NCBI GenBank assembly: GCA_002221445.1
Contig: NMUI01000003.1
Location: forward strand, 1 to 35,305
From: Phenylobacterium zucineum
GTDB taxonomy: Bacteria; Pseudomonadota; Alphaproteobacteria; Caulobacterales; Caulobacteraceae
Direction of reading: 5' to 3'
Length of the DNA stretch: 35,305 nucleotides
Shown here: positions 3,373-33,613 of the stretch, piece by piece
How the letters are laid out: every line of letters begins with the position of its first letter
Numbering within the stretch: position 1 is the stretch's first letter
The notes under the pieces: model-generated
What the model was told of the DNA's origin: nothing
The model's database searches: none
What the model saw: only the letters and a program-made list of their open reading frames with translations
Translations under genes and position numbers: made by a program

Positions 3373-5490
3373 TCAGAGCGACCGGTAGAGCCAGCGAGGA
3401 ATGTAGAACGACCGCTTGTTCAGCACGGCCCCAATCACTTGACCGCCCGCATCATCAATCTGGTCTACGAGACGGCGGGCCACAGCGGCACGGGTCATCT
3501 CGGCTTCAACCACCACCAGGGTGGCGTCGGCCAATCCCGCGACTTCTATGCCCGCAGAGGAACGCTCGAAGGCCGGAGAATCAATCAAGATCAGATCAAA
3601 GCTGGTGCGGGCTGCCTGAATTATTTTGCCCCATTTTGCCTCTTCAACCTTGAGCCCACCAGCCCCGATGGGCGCTGAGACATATAAGGTGGTGTCGCCA
3701 ACCTGAAGGGTGCGGCGCTCAGGCGAAACAGGGGTAAGGGGCTGGCCCTGGGCTGCAAACATAGCCGCTGCCCCGCGTCCGTCCGGCGGTTCGATGTCAA
3801 GAAGCAGAACCTTTCTCATCCCGCCCGAAACGGCGATGGCCGCCAAGTCCCGCGCCAGATTTGAAACCCCCTCACCTTCATGGGCGGAGATCAACTGCAT
3901 CACGCTGCCGCCGGTGTTTCTCAGGGTCGACATAATGCGCAGTAACAGTCGGCCTTCATCCTGGCTCAGACGAGTGGGTGACAATCGACCAGGCCTGCGG
4001 GGCAGGATGTCATCATTGAGTGCCACTGACAGCAGGACAGGTACACCCACCTTGTCCTCAAGATCCCGGGGGGTGACCATGACCTCAGACAGGGCTGAGG
4101 CTACAAGAACGGTGGCGAGGGCCGTGATTAAACCAGCAAGGCAACCCGCCAGGAGGATCAGACTGCGGCCGGCCTTACCCCGGGTCGGGGGCTCAGCCGG
4201 TTGAATCACCCGAACATTGGCCCGGGACCGGGCAGTGGAATTGGCGAGGCTGCCATCCTCAACCGTGCGATCAAGGTCTTGAAGCGCGCTCTCGACCACA
4301 GTGCGTGCCCGGATAAGCTCCCGATACTCCGGCCCGATCCTTACAAGGTCTTCCAGACGGCTTGCGACGCGATCCAGGGCTTGAGTGAGGGCGGCTCGAC
4401 CGTTCCGCAGGCCCGCAACATCCCCGAATGAATCGGCCAATTCCGTATCGATTTGCTGATGAACCGGATTGAGCCCACGACGCTCAACCGATACCTGCTG
4501 GGCGGGAACCTGCCGCATCTCAGCCTGCACCCTAGCAATTCGAGCATCGAGATCGGCGAGAAGCGGATAGCCTTCGCGATATTTTTCCGCCGCCTCACGC
4601 CGCTGGGCCTGAAGAGCGACCAGATTTTGCATCAGACCTTCCATGGCGGTCGAGCGCGATCTGTCCGTAAACACCTGGATTTCCTGGGGTGTTGACCGAT
4701 TCAGTATGGAGAGTTGATTGGCCCGACCCGCACGGGTGGCGATCTGTTGATCCAGGGACTGAAGTTGACCCTGGAGTAGGGCCTGTTGGGATTGAACGGC
4801 ATTGAACTCCTGCCCATAGTCGCCAAACCCGTAGCGGGTGGAAAAATCCGTGATCTGGGCTTCGACCTGGCTCAGGCGTTGACGAAGCACATCTCTTTGA
4901 ACACTGACCGTGGCCGGATCTGCCCGCTTGAACACCTCATTTCGGCGGATTTGATAGACTTCGACCAACTTATTGAGCAGGTCCGCGGCGACCTTGGGAT
5001 CGCCAGCCTTCAACTTCAATTCGATGACATTGGAAGTTGGAATATTCTCAACCGTCAGATCTTTCTCAAGCTGATCAACCCCCTTGGCAAAACCTTGTGG
5101 TTCCGCGACGAGTTTCGGATACACCCTAGCAAGGCCAATGGCCTTTAGGGCATCTGACCGGACGCCCCTGGAACTGAGAATTTCCATTTCCGCATGAACG
5201 ATCTGAGACCGATCAAAGGACTGTGCCGAGCCCGGATCTGCGACGGAAGCCTTAAACACATAGTCACCACCCAATAGAATCAGCAGCCGCGACTGCGCGA
5301 CAAAGACCGTATGGGCGAAAAAAATGGCAATGCAGGCGGCCAGGACCGGCAGTAGAAACGCCAGGATGGCGTGTCTCATATAATAAAATACCGGAGTCAG
5401 CAGTTCGCGAATCGTCAGGGGCGAGCGCACTCTCCGCTTTGTCGGCGATGCGGAGTACGATGTCTGATCGAGAACCGCAGAAGTCATCAA
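3373..5490 (-). CDS. Polysaccharide co-polymerase (Wzz/GumC type) with a C-terminal BY-kinase-like P-loop domain
   Basis: 705 aa. N-terminal TM segment, coiled-coil GNVR-like region, second TM (ILLAGCLAGLITALATVLVASAL), then a MinD/CpsD-like domain (VLLLDIEPPDGRG...FDLILIDSPAF...ADATLVVVEAEMTRAAVARR). Confidence 0.85.
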   Translation of the reverse strand: MMTSAVLDQTSYSASPTKRRVRSPLTIRELLTPVFYYMRHAILAFLLPVLAACIAIFFAHTVFVAQSRLLILLGGDYVFKASVADPGSAQSFDRSQIVHAEMEILSSRGVRSDALKAIGLARVYPKLVAEPQGFAKGVDQLEKDLTVENIPTSNVIELKLKAGDPKVAADLLNKLVEVYQIRRNEVFKRADPATVSVQRDVLRQRLSQVEAQITDFSTRYGFGDYGQEFNAVQSQQALLQGQLQSLDQQIATRAGRANQLSILNRSTPQEIQVFTDRSRSTAMEGLMQNLVALQAQRREAAEKYREGYPLLADLDARIARVQAEMRQVPAQQVSVERRGLNPVHQQIDTELADSFGDVAGLRNGRAALTQALDRVASRLEDLVRIGPEYRELIRARTVVESALQDLDRTVEDGSLANSTARSRANVRVIQPAEPPTRGKAGRSLILLAGCLAGLITALATVLVASALSEVMVTPRDLEDKVGVPVLLSVALNDDILPRRPGRLSPTRLSQDEGRLLLRIMSTLRNTGGSVMQLISAHEGEGVSNLARDLAAIAVSGGMRKVLLLDIEPPDGRGAAAMFAAQGQPLTPVSPERRTLQVGDTTLYVSAPIGAGGLKVEEAKWGKIIQAARTSFDLILIDSPAFERSSAGIEVAGLADATLVVVEAEMTRAAVARRLVDQIDDAGGQVIGAVLNKRSFYIPRWLYRSL

Positions 5491-30978: not shown

Positions 30979-32100
30979 TCAGGAGCGGGTTTGATACCAG
31001 GCGACACCTTGGTTATCGATGGTCTTAGTCATGCGGCCGCGAGTGATGAGGCAGTTGATGTGGGCAAGGCTCTCGCCGGTGGCCATGCCCAGAACCCACT
31101 GATCGATCTTGCGCCGGAACAGAACGTGGAAAACATCCACCGCCCGCTTAGGCTCCACGGCCAGTTTTTCCAGCCGGTCAAGCCCCCGCTCATGACCGCC
31201 GATCAAGTGGTCGATCCGGGCGTGGAGGCCGTAGAAAGGGTCGTTATGGGCGGGCAGAACCAGAACCTCATCGGGCACCAAGGTCTTAATCCGCGCCAGG
31301 GAAGTCAGCCAGTCGGTCAGGGGATCGCCCGCAGGCTCGGTGGGGAAGACCGACACATTGGATGAAATTTTCGGCAGGATCTGGTCGCCGCTGATCAACA
31401 GTTTCAGGGCCGGGCAATAGAGACAAGCGTGCTCAGGTGAGTGCCCAGAGCCCACCACAACCTTCCAGTTATGATGACCGATCCTGATTTCATCTCCGTC
31501 GGTCAGCCGATGAAAACTGTCAGGCAGGGCGTGCAGTCCCCGTCCGAAGCCGCCGAATTTGGCCTTATAGTTTTCAAGGGCATCTTCGTCCCACCCGGCG
31601 GCCTTGTAGAACTCAAGGGCATCATCGGGGGCCTCGCGCCCGGTGTCGGCCGCCAAGGACCGGCACATGAGAAATTCAAGCCGGGTGATCCAAAGCCGAC
31701 AATCGAACTTGCGGGTGATCCAACCGGCCATGCCGATATGATCAGGGTGCATGTGGGTGACGAAGACCCGGGTCACCTTCAGACCCGCCAGGGGACCGGC
31801 AAACGCCTTACGCCAAGCCTGCTGGGTTTCAGGCCCCCCCATGCCGGTGTCCACAATGGCCCAGCCGCCGTCTTCCTCAATCGCCCAGACATTGATGAAG
31901 GACAGGGCACCGCCCAGGGGCATACGCAGCCACTTCACCCCCGGTGCCACATCAATGGCCTCCCCGGTTCTAGGTCCGCTGTCAAACGGATAGGTCAGTT
32001 TGGGGCGCGGCATGTCAGGGATCGGATTTTCAAAACCGTCGCGCATTCGGACCCTCCTAAGGTGAGCCCCCATTGTCGCGCCGGAAAGCCAAAGGATCAA
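30979..32100 (-). CDS. MBL-fold metallo-hydrolase; likely start MRDGFENPIPDMPRPKL near 32043
   Basis: THMHPDHIGMAGWI (HxHxDH variant), GSGHSPEHACLY, SGDQILPKIS. Confidence 0.9.
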   Translation of the reverse strand: MILWLSGATMGAHLRRVRMRDGFENPIPDMPRPKLTYPFDSGPRTGEAIDVAPGVKWLRMPLGGALSFINVWAIEEDGGWAIVDTGMGGPETQQAWRKAFAGPLAGLKVTRVFVTHMHPDHIGMAGWITRKFDCRLWITRLEFLMCRSLAADTGREAPDDALEFYKAAGWDEDALENYKAKFGGFGRGLHALPDSFHRLTDGDEIRIGHHNWKVVVGSGHSPEHACLYCPALKLLISGDQILPKISSNVSVFPTEPAGDPLTDWLTSLARIKTLVPDEVLVLPAHNDPFYGLHARIDHLIGGHERGLDRLEKLAVEPKRAVDVFHVLFRRKIDQWVLGMATGESLAHINCLITRGRMTKTIDNQGVAWYQTRS

Positions 32101-32137
32101 ACATCCATTGCACGCACCTCAAACCTCTTGATTTTCC

Positions 32138-32209
32138 TGGAGCCGATAAATCTGACATTCGCGCACGGCCCTGAATGTAACGCGAGAGGCGAATGTCAGA
32201 TTAGCTCCA
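32138..32209. repeat. Nested inverted repeat: TGGAGC-(5)-AATCTGACATTCGC-(26)-GCGAATGTCAGATT-(1)-GCTCCA
   Basis: Read directly: 14-bp arms 32149-32162 and 32189-32202 are exact reverse complements; 6-bp outer arms 32138-32143 and 32204-32209 are also exact. Confidence 0.9.
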
Positions 32210-32290
32210 CCAGCTTCACGGGGCGCTTGCCCAATGGCCGCCCTTGGGCTTAAGGACGCCGCAGGAAACACACCCAGGAGAGACTTGATT

Positions 32291-33613
32291 ATGAGGCCAT
32301 TAGGACTCGGCATCGCTGCCGCCCTCATCATCGCTGCGCTGATACCCGTCGCAGTGATGTCCGCACCCAAGGGAGCCGAGGCCATTCCGGAGGCCGCCCG
32401 CAAACAAGGCATGGCCGAAGCCCCGGCTGTGGCCCAGGCCGCCGGGATCACCTGCAAGGTGACCGACGCTCGTTTCGTCGGCAAGGCCACGGACGCCAAG
32501 ACCAAGATCTCGACCTCTTATTATGAAGTCGATTGCGATCAGGGTCTGGGCTTTGTCCTGTCCGCGGCGACCGGTGCCAAGCCCACCGCCTTTACCTGTA
32601 TCGAAGCCAATACCCCGCAGCCCGACGGCAAACCCTCGGCCCTGCCCTGCAAGCTGCCGGGCAATGCCGACCCCAAGGCTGACCTGGCTCCCCTGCTGGC
32701 CAAGGCCAATGTAACCTGCACCCCCGAAGCCGCCCGCGGTATCGGTCAGAGTGCTAAGAACACCTTCCTGGAAATCGCCTGTCAGGGCGGCACCGGCTAT
32801 GTGATGCAAGCTGGCGCGCCGGCCAATCCGGACTCCCCGGCCTTGGCCAGTGACTGCCTGCTTTATGACGGTGCCGACGGCAACATCAAGTGTACCCTGC
32901 ATGACAAGGCCTATCGCCTCGCGGTTATGGATCCTTACATCACCGCCGCCAACAATGGCTGTGTGGCCAAGGACAAGCGTTATATCGGCCTGTCTCAGGC
33001 TGGAGCGGCCTATTACGAAGCCGCCTGCACGGACGGTAAGGGCTATATCTACAAGGTCGAAAAGGGCGTTCTGGCCTCCGCCACCCCCTGTGAAAAGGCC
33101 GCCATGCTGCTGGGCGGTTGTGAACTAACCAATGCCAAGGAAGCCGAAACCGCCCAGGCCGGGCTCTATACTAAGCTGGCGCAGAAGGTTGGCTTTGACT
33201 GCCAGGTCTCGAAATACGCCCCCTTCCCGTCTCCGGCCGGTAAGGACATTGTCGAACTGGCCTGCTCCAACCGTCCAGATGGCGGCGTCGGCATTTTCGG
33301 CGGCCCCAATGACAAGTCCAGCGTCATCGACTGTGCCCACGCCCCTATCGCTGGCTATCGTTGCAGCTTCACGCCGGAATCGGCCACCAACGGCCTGTTG
33401 ACGGCGGACCTGAAGAAGCAGGGCAAGGACTCTTGTCAGGTGTCGAAATCCCGTCTGGTGGGCAAGACCGCCAAGGGCACAACCGTTGTCGAAGTTGCCT
33501 GTTCCGACGGCTTGAAGGGCTACATCCTTGAATATAGCCCCGACCCGATCGCGCCGATCAGCACTGTGGGCTGCGCCTTCACCAAGGACTGCAAGCTACC
33601 CGGCAATACCTGA
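32291..33613 (+). CDS. Secreted protein with five Cys-rich repeats of roughly 60-90 aa; start ATG 32291 (MRPLGLGI)
   Basis: Hydrophobic signal/TM segment, then units beginning ITCKVTDARFVGK, VTCTPEAARGIGQ, GCVAKDKRYIGL, FDCQVSKYAPF, DSCQVSKSRLVGK, each followed by (Y/L)(Y/E)E(V/I/A)(D/A)C and G(F/Y)(V/I). AGGAGAG RBS upstream. ORF track opens earlier at 32234. Confidence 0.85.
   Translation: MRPLGLGIAAALIIAALIPVAVMSAPKGAEAIPEAARKQGMAEAPAVAQAAGITCKVTDARFVGKATDAKTKISTSYYEVDCDQGLGFVLSAATGAKPTAFTCIEANTPQPDGKPSALPCKLPGNADPKADLAPLLAKANVTCTPEAARGIGQSAKNTFLEIACQGGTGYVMQAGAPANPDSPALASDCLLYDGADGNIKCTLHDKAYRLAVMDPYITAANNGCVAKDKRYIGLSQAGAAYYEAACTDGKGYIYKVEKGVLASATPCEKAAMLLGGCELTNAKEAETAQAGLYTKLAQKVGFDCQVSKYAPFPSPAGKDIVELACSNRPDGGVGIFGGPNDKSSVIDCAHAPIAGYRCSFTPESATNGLLTADLKKQGKDSCQVSKSRLVGKTAKGTTVVEVACSDGLKGYILEYSPDPIAPISTVGCAFTKDCKLPGNT

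Follow-up and report, generated by a model that had tools for sequence, protein, structure and literature searches.

The inverted repeat at positions 32138 to 32209 of the window, by which we mean the whole 35,305-nucleotide stretch of Phenylobacterium zucineum DNA analyzed here, is very likely a solo, somewhat diverged copy of hairpin 2 of a non-autonomous, dispersed repeat family of Alphaproteobacteria. Members of this family are dispersed through genomes, their stems covary and they insert at CTAG, and the window copy is absent at the orthologous locus in relatives. The window element is a passenger in the genome, not a conserved gene switch.

The first-pass annotation had described a nested inverted repeat between two divergent genes, and a check against the sequence found every arm in place. 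The parts of the repeat are as follows.

32138..32143, + strand: left arm of the outer stem, TGGAGC; lower stem of family hairpin 2, with the CTAGTG-type foot degenerated to CTGGAG
32149..32162, + strand: left arm of the inner stem, AATCTGACATTCGC (sequence, covariance model R1)
32163..32188, + strand: loop of 26 bases with the family motif CCTGAATGTAACGCGAGAG, consensus CCTTGATGTCACGCGAGAG (family alignment)
32189..32202, + strand: right arm of the inner stem, GCGAATGTCAGATT (sequence, covariance model R1)
32204..32209, + strand: right arm of the outer stem, GCTCCA, then CCAG (sequence, alignment)

The 14-bp inner arms are perfect, and the junctions to the outer stem are imperfect. No other exact 14-bp inverted repeat with a gap of at most 60 bp occurs in the window, where ~0.012 would be expected by composition. 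Folding of an 80-mer gave z scores of -4.3 as DNA and -5.0 as RNA on both strands, with none of 200 shuffles equally good. The partial echo GAATGTAACGC sits inside the loop, as had been noticed, and is the counterpart of a loop motif conserved in the family, (cc)TTGATGTCAcGCG. The earlier remark that the repeat is not recognizable as a known family holds for Rfam and for the papers searched: Rfam covariance models did not match the element (they detected only a tRNA elsewhere in locus L061), and a sequence-text search did not find the family core sequences in those papers. The window copy contains no GANTC sites, so methylation-based ideas do not apply there.

We next consider the locus in which the repeat lies.

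30979..32052, - strand: gene for an MBL-fold hydrolase (Lactamase_B, PF00753; Pfam match, alignment with relatives)
32090..32101, + strand: host block ATCAAAC, also intergenic and conserved, across the insertion from the block at 32210..32250
32124..32136, + strand: stretch resembling the family spacer (CAACTCTTTGATTC in genome G003), element membership uncertain
32134..32209, no strand assigned: inserted segment of 76 bp, missing at the orthologous loci of seven relatives, each boundary good to within a few bases
32210..32250, + strand: conserved host intergenic block GTTCACG...CTTG, directly 3' of the insertion and kept in insertion-free relatives
32291..33613, + strand: repeat-protein gene, with a conserved start at ATGAGGCC, preceded by AGGAGAGA

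The divergent gene pair is syntenic in many genomes of the genus, and it is kept there although the repeat protein (32291-33613) found no match in Pfam or NCBIfam. For the hydrolase, relatives share the start at the ATG of MRDGFENP, near position 32050, not the mechanically listed TTG. In a multiple alignment of the locus with seven relatives (G084, G013, G046, G016, G041, G023 and G072), the ~76 bp from 32134 to 32209 were absent from all seven, while both genes were present and the region could be aligned on both sides. The ATCAAAC block was conserved in five of the seven, and the GTTCACG...CTTG block was conserved as well. The window repeat is a lineage-specific insertion of one hairpin between two divergent genes. 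Whether the stretch at 32124..32136 belongs to the element is uncertain, since its left part also aligns with host sequence. Hairpin 1 is missing from the copy, and its feet are CTGG and CCAG instead of CTAG, which marks it as old or partial. The possibility of a decayed hairpin 1 on its left side (~32050-32118) was considered and rejected, as that stretch aligns with element-free relatives. We envisage that a hairpin unit of ~76 bp was placed between two genes, neither of which would need it, to judge from the relatives; it may have moved as a single hairpin or may be the remnant of a twin element. Effects of the insertion on the neighboring promoters are possible.

The search for the 14-mer and the full element that the annotation had suggested, across the genome and its relatives, uncovered copies dispersed in the genome itself and in 10 of 60 genus genomes. 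With the segment 32100-32250 as query, three further places in the same genome were detected at E<0.001 (74-85% identity), and the 14-mer, allowing up to 2 mismatches, occurred 33 times there, compared to 6 times for a reversed control. Eight aligned window-type copies from the source genome (G000), G003 and G013 served to build a covariance model (R1; 87 positions, 20 pairs). In the source genome it identified 18 places at E<=1 and 9 at E<1e-6, six of the latter being training sequences. Among the 60 genus genomes there were 10 carriers, and nothing reached E<=0.01 in the other 50. Full-length copies outside the training set were numerous in G075 (35), G042 (30) and G002 (17) and were also present in G014, G008 and G056, with E values down to 4e-12.

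Within the source genome, copies adjoin unrelated genes (UvrB-like, RNase H/MarR-like and TerC-like, as named from their reading frames). Many of them lie in promoter or 5' regions, whereas most copies in other genomes lie at gene ends; a secondary regulatory role is therefore possible. An orientation bias of the source-genome copies was examined and set aside: most copies with a downstream gene start lie between divergent genes, and such copies carry no orientation information.

The complete family element is ~162 bp long and consists of CTAG, hairpin 1, a conserved spacer of ~14 nt, hairpin 2 and CTAG. Hairpins measure ~70-78 bp, and their feet are CTAG. In elements of the type found in G002, G042 and G075, hairpin 1 reads CTAGTGTCC-C-GATTCCGAAGTTCGC, loop, GCGAACTTCGGAATC-(2-5 nt)-GGACACTAG, and hairpin 2, which follows the ~14-nt spacer, reads CTAGTGTGC-(4-5 nt)-GGATCTGAAGTTCGC, loop, GCGAACTTCAGATCC-A-GCACACTAG; with both CTAGs these elements come to ~166 bp. 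The outer 25 bp at one end form an imperfect inverted repeat with those at the other (CTAGTGTCCCGATTCCGAAGTTCGC / CTAGTGTGCTGGATCTGAAGTTCGC). Within this twin element, the window copy matches hairpin 2, the 3' one. A copy in G003 (L058) links the two forms, since it joins a CTAG-bounded hairpin 1 and the spacer CAACTCTTTGATTC to a window-type hairpin 2; the spacer of Hyphomicrobiales copies, CAACTCTATGATT, is nearly identical. GANTC sites occur in the hairpin-1 stem and the spacer, with a mean of 2.7 per twin element. Partial forms include solo copies of hairpin 1 (L337 and L338), chimeras reduced to the two outer halves (L127 and L112; others were detected by a 47-bp spacing). Short chimeric copies of ~72 bp, again with the two outer halves only, were seen in G075 (contigs C70, C65, C62 and C113) and G002 (C104).

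Covariation in the stems is extensive, as in a structure under selection. The consensus fold of 16 diverse full elements contains 50 pairs in two hairpins; 98.9% of the cells are paired, and 23 of the 50 pairs show double changes, compared to 9.1 in shuffles and at most 7 when partners were slid against each other. Hairpin 2 is the most diverged part and is compensated throughout.

The family is wide but patchy across Alphaproteobacteria. At least 115 contig stretches from GTDB genomes contain an exact 25-mer from hairpin 1. The 80 matches listed come from Xanthobacteraceae, Hyphomicrobium, Rhodoplanes, Pseudolabrys, Caulobacter ginsengisoli, Phenylobacterium and others, and all 80 are titled Alphaproteobacteria or plain Proteobacteria. 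When up to 2 mismatches were allowed, the 25-mer was found in 11 of 289 genomes of the class, in well-separated families, with zero control matches. Weaker relatives occur on Roseibium and Labrenzia plasmids, where the one copy inspected lies between convergent genes. The hairpin-1 25-mer is also present in five viral contigs; annotated phage records had no match to the element. The dispersed copies, the empty orthologous site in seven relatives and the class-wide mobile family bear out one of the three roles first suggested for the repeat, that of a small repetitive or mobile hairpin element.

To look for empty sites, we compared the joined flanks of 17 copies with 101 genus genomes. A filled site reads CTAG-element-CTAG, and the orthologous empty sites have a single CTAG. 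For the copy in L064, ten relatives have an empty single-CTAG site, and so do most of the relatives for L060; further empty sites are L212 for L076 and L213 for L074. In some relatives the target site itself has diverged. In the three copy-rich genomes most element ends have CTAG on both sides. One whole twin element lies inside another's internal CTAG (L340, reverse strand, ~130-510, on a contig classed as viral), and tandem copies in L142 share a CTAG. Copies of the family insert at CTAG. Because this palindrome is constant, a target duplication of 4 bp, of 2 bp or none at all fits the flanks and the empty sites alike. TTAG/CTAA ends were considered as evidence of a 4-bp target duplication; since the empty site for L072 has CTAG, the odd end probably arose by later mutation and is no guide to the length.

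CTAG contains TAG on both strands, so that insertions at gene ends often keep stop codons intact and would be nearly neutral. Of 62 twin elements, 48 have an end whose TAG closes an open frame of at least 60 codons, compared to only 10 of the 45 CTAG sites in the window. We note that CTAG is under-represented in the window (positions 1-35305; 45 sites versus 129 expected), making it a rare target.

Filled and empty sites show that the family has moved, and this movement would depend on an enzyme that works in trans, either on the hairpins or on the terminal repeats. It is conceivable, with the balance leaning against it, that the family is a MITE of a DDE insertion sequence, with an IS5-type 4-bp or an IS630-type TA target duplication and the outer 25 bp serving as terminal inverted repeats. 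The imperfect inverted repeats at the outer ends would suit such an origin, as would CTAG on both sides of filled sites, the single CTAG of empty ones and the deletion derivatives that retain the two outer ends. The search for a parent insertion sequence covered two DDE families. DDE_3 (PF13358, IS630-type) had no match over the cut-off in 12 carriers, and DDE_Tnp_1 (PF01609, IS4/IS5-type) was absent from five carriers (G002, G014, G056, Caulobacter ginsengisoli and Hyphomicrobium CS1BSMeth3), negatives limited by the incompleteness of metagenome-assembled genomes (MAGs). Transposases of the IS630 and IS4/IS5 types were rejected as movers, none of the transposase loci examined having the family's ends, and the CTAG palindrome leaves the duplication length ambiguous. 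Unpaired element ends were also followed as possible edges of an autonomous element; the subset inspected proved to be solo, truncated or contig-edge copies. A frame at the edge of L120 had no Pfam match, and no autonomous element or linked transposase was found among the loci examined.

A REP/REPIN-type repeat with a REP-associated tyrosine transposase (RAYT) as its mover is unlikely. As in REP/BIME elements, the hairpins are imperfect and bulge asymmetrically, the tetranucleotide foot is fixed, and singlets occur alongside inverted doublets; a Y1 transposase is present in three carriers (G000, G002 and G008). However, in a search confined to genus genomes, the carriers G003, G013, G014, G042, G056 and G075 gave no Y1 match, a result that the incompleteness of these MAGs limits. 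RAYT was rejected as the mover, since none of the three Y1 genes is near a copy and the one in G008 is flanked by hairpins of its own, different from those of the family. REP families have hairpins of 20-40 bp with a GTAG or CGTC tetranucleotide foot (PMC3733652), not hairpins of ~70-78 bp with CTAG feet. The G008 gene (L086, G008:C35:391000-399500, at ~4132-5044) encodes a RAYT-like Y1 protein and has hairpins CGGGGACACG...ACGACTTTCC on both sides, which makes it a separate candidate REP/RAYT system. The Y1 gene of the source genome (G000:C29:844-1164; L084 and L087) has no flanking CTAG hairpins and adjoins what by eye resembles a toxin-antitoxin pair.

Two regulatory roles had also been suggested for the window repeat. 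An operator pair for a dimeric regulator controlling both divergent genes is very improbable. In its favor, the 14-bp inverted repeat is perfect and lies between divergent genes, as do several other copies in the same genome. The reading is nevertheless unsupported because the seven relatives have both genes and the conserved intergenic blocks but not the repeat and because other copies flank the unrelated UvrB-like, RNase H/MarR-like and TerC-like genes; moreover, the compensatory changes preserve pairing, not a fixed binding sequence. A structured leader, or some other regulatory RNA, for the repeat-protein gene is just as improbable. Strong folding on both strands and the position of some source-genome copies just upstream of start codons could point to it, but the element is missing from upstream of the orthologous genes and has no Rfam match, and most family copies in relatives lie at gene ends in either orientation. 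In the window, moreover, the probable promoter of the gene lies in conserved sequence downstream of the element.

The window repeat is best regarded as a copy from a broad mobile repeat family that has apparently been little described. As a tentative proposal, for which we would claim somewhat less than an even chance, this would be a previously undescribed, class-wide, CTAG-homing family of twin hairpins, in which compensatory change maintains the hairpins and the spacer because a putative enzyme, possibly acting on single-stranded hairpins, moves the unit or single hairpins, and in which the use of CTAG spares stop codons. What looked like an operator has turned out to be an insertion that belongs with a repeat family widespread in Alphaproteobacteria. 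This cautions against taking every inverted repeat in a divergent promoter region of these genomes for an operator. With filled and empty sites, a defined CTAG target and strong covariation in hand, the movement of two-armed (CIR-like) repeats becomes directly testable.

Among described repeats, the nearest kinds appear to be CIR repeats, which by their description come closest, MITEs and REP doublets. CIR elements, the Caulobacter CcrM-associated intergenic repeats of Chen and Shapiro (2003), are described in PMC2229807 and PMC10969869; they are ~110 bp long and have two inverted-repeat arms and a linker, with GANTC at the terminal loop of one arm (PMC2229807). As portrayed there, CIR resemble the twin element in being alphaproteobacterial, intergenic and conserved between species and in carrying GANTC sites. 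Two arms and a linker are likewise found in complete family elements, whereas the window copy has one arm. The twin element is longer (~162 bp versus ~110 bp), its GANTC sites lie in the hairpin-1 stem and the spacer instead of a terminal loop, with none in the window copy, and the passages on CIR in PMC2229807 and PMC10969869 mention no CTAG target. REP, BIME and REPIN elements (PMC3733652, PMC2817692, PMC3116915) share bulged hairpins, a fixed tetranucleotide foot, and singlets and inverted doublets with the family; the twin element differs in its longer hairpins, CTAG feet on both sides and lower copy number, and no RAYT gene is linked to or flanked by the family repeat. MITEs such as RUP, Correia/NEMIS and ERIC are, like this family, short, non-coding, dispersed in multiple copies and bounded by terminal inverted repeats, imperfect ones in the family; fixed targets, an intergenic bias, and tandem and nested copies are further points of likeness. 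In contrast to the one hairpin of MITEs, the twin element has two separate hairpins and a conserved spacer, and no parent insertion sequence with the family's ends was found in PF13358 or PF01609. The RIME and Bru-RS repeats of Rhizobiales, intergenic palindromes of ~100 bp, also come from the Alphaproteobacteria.
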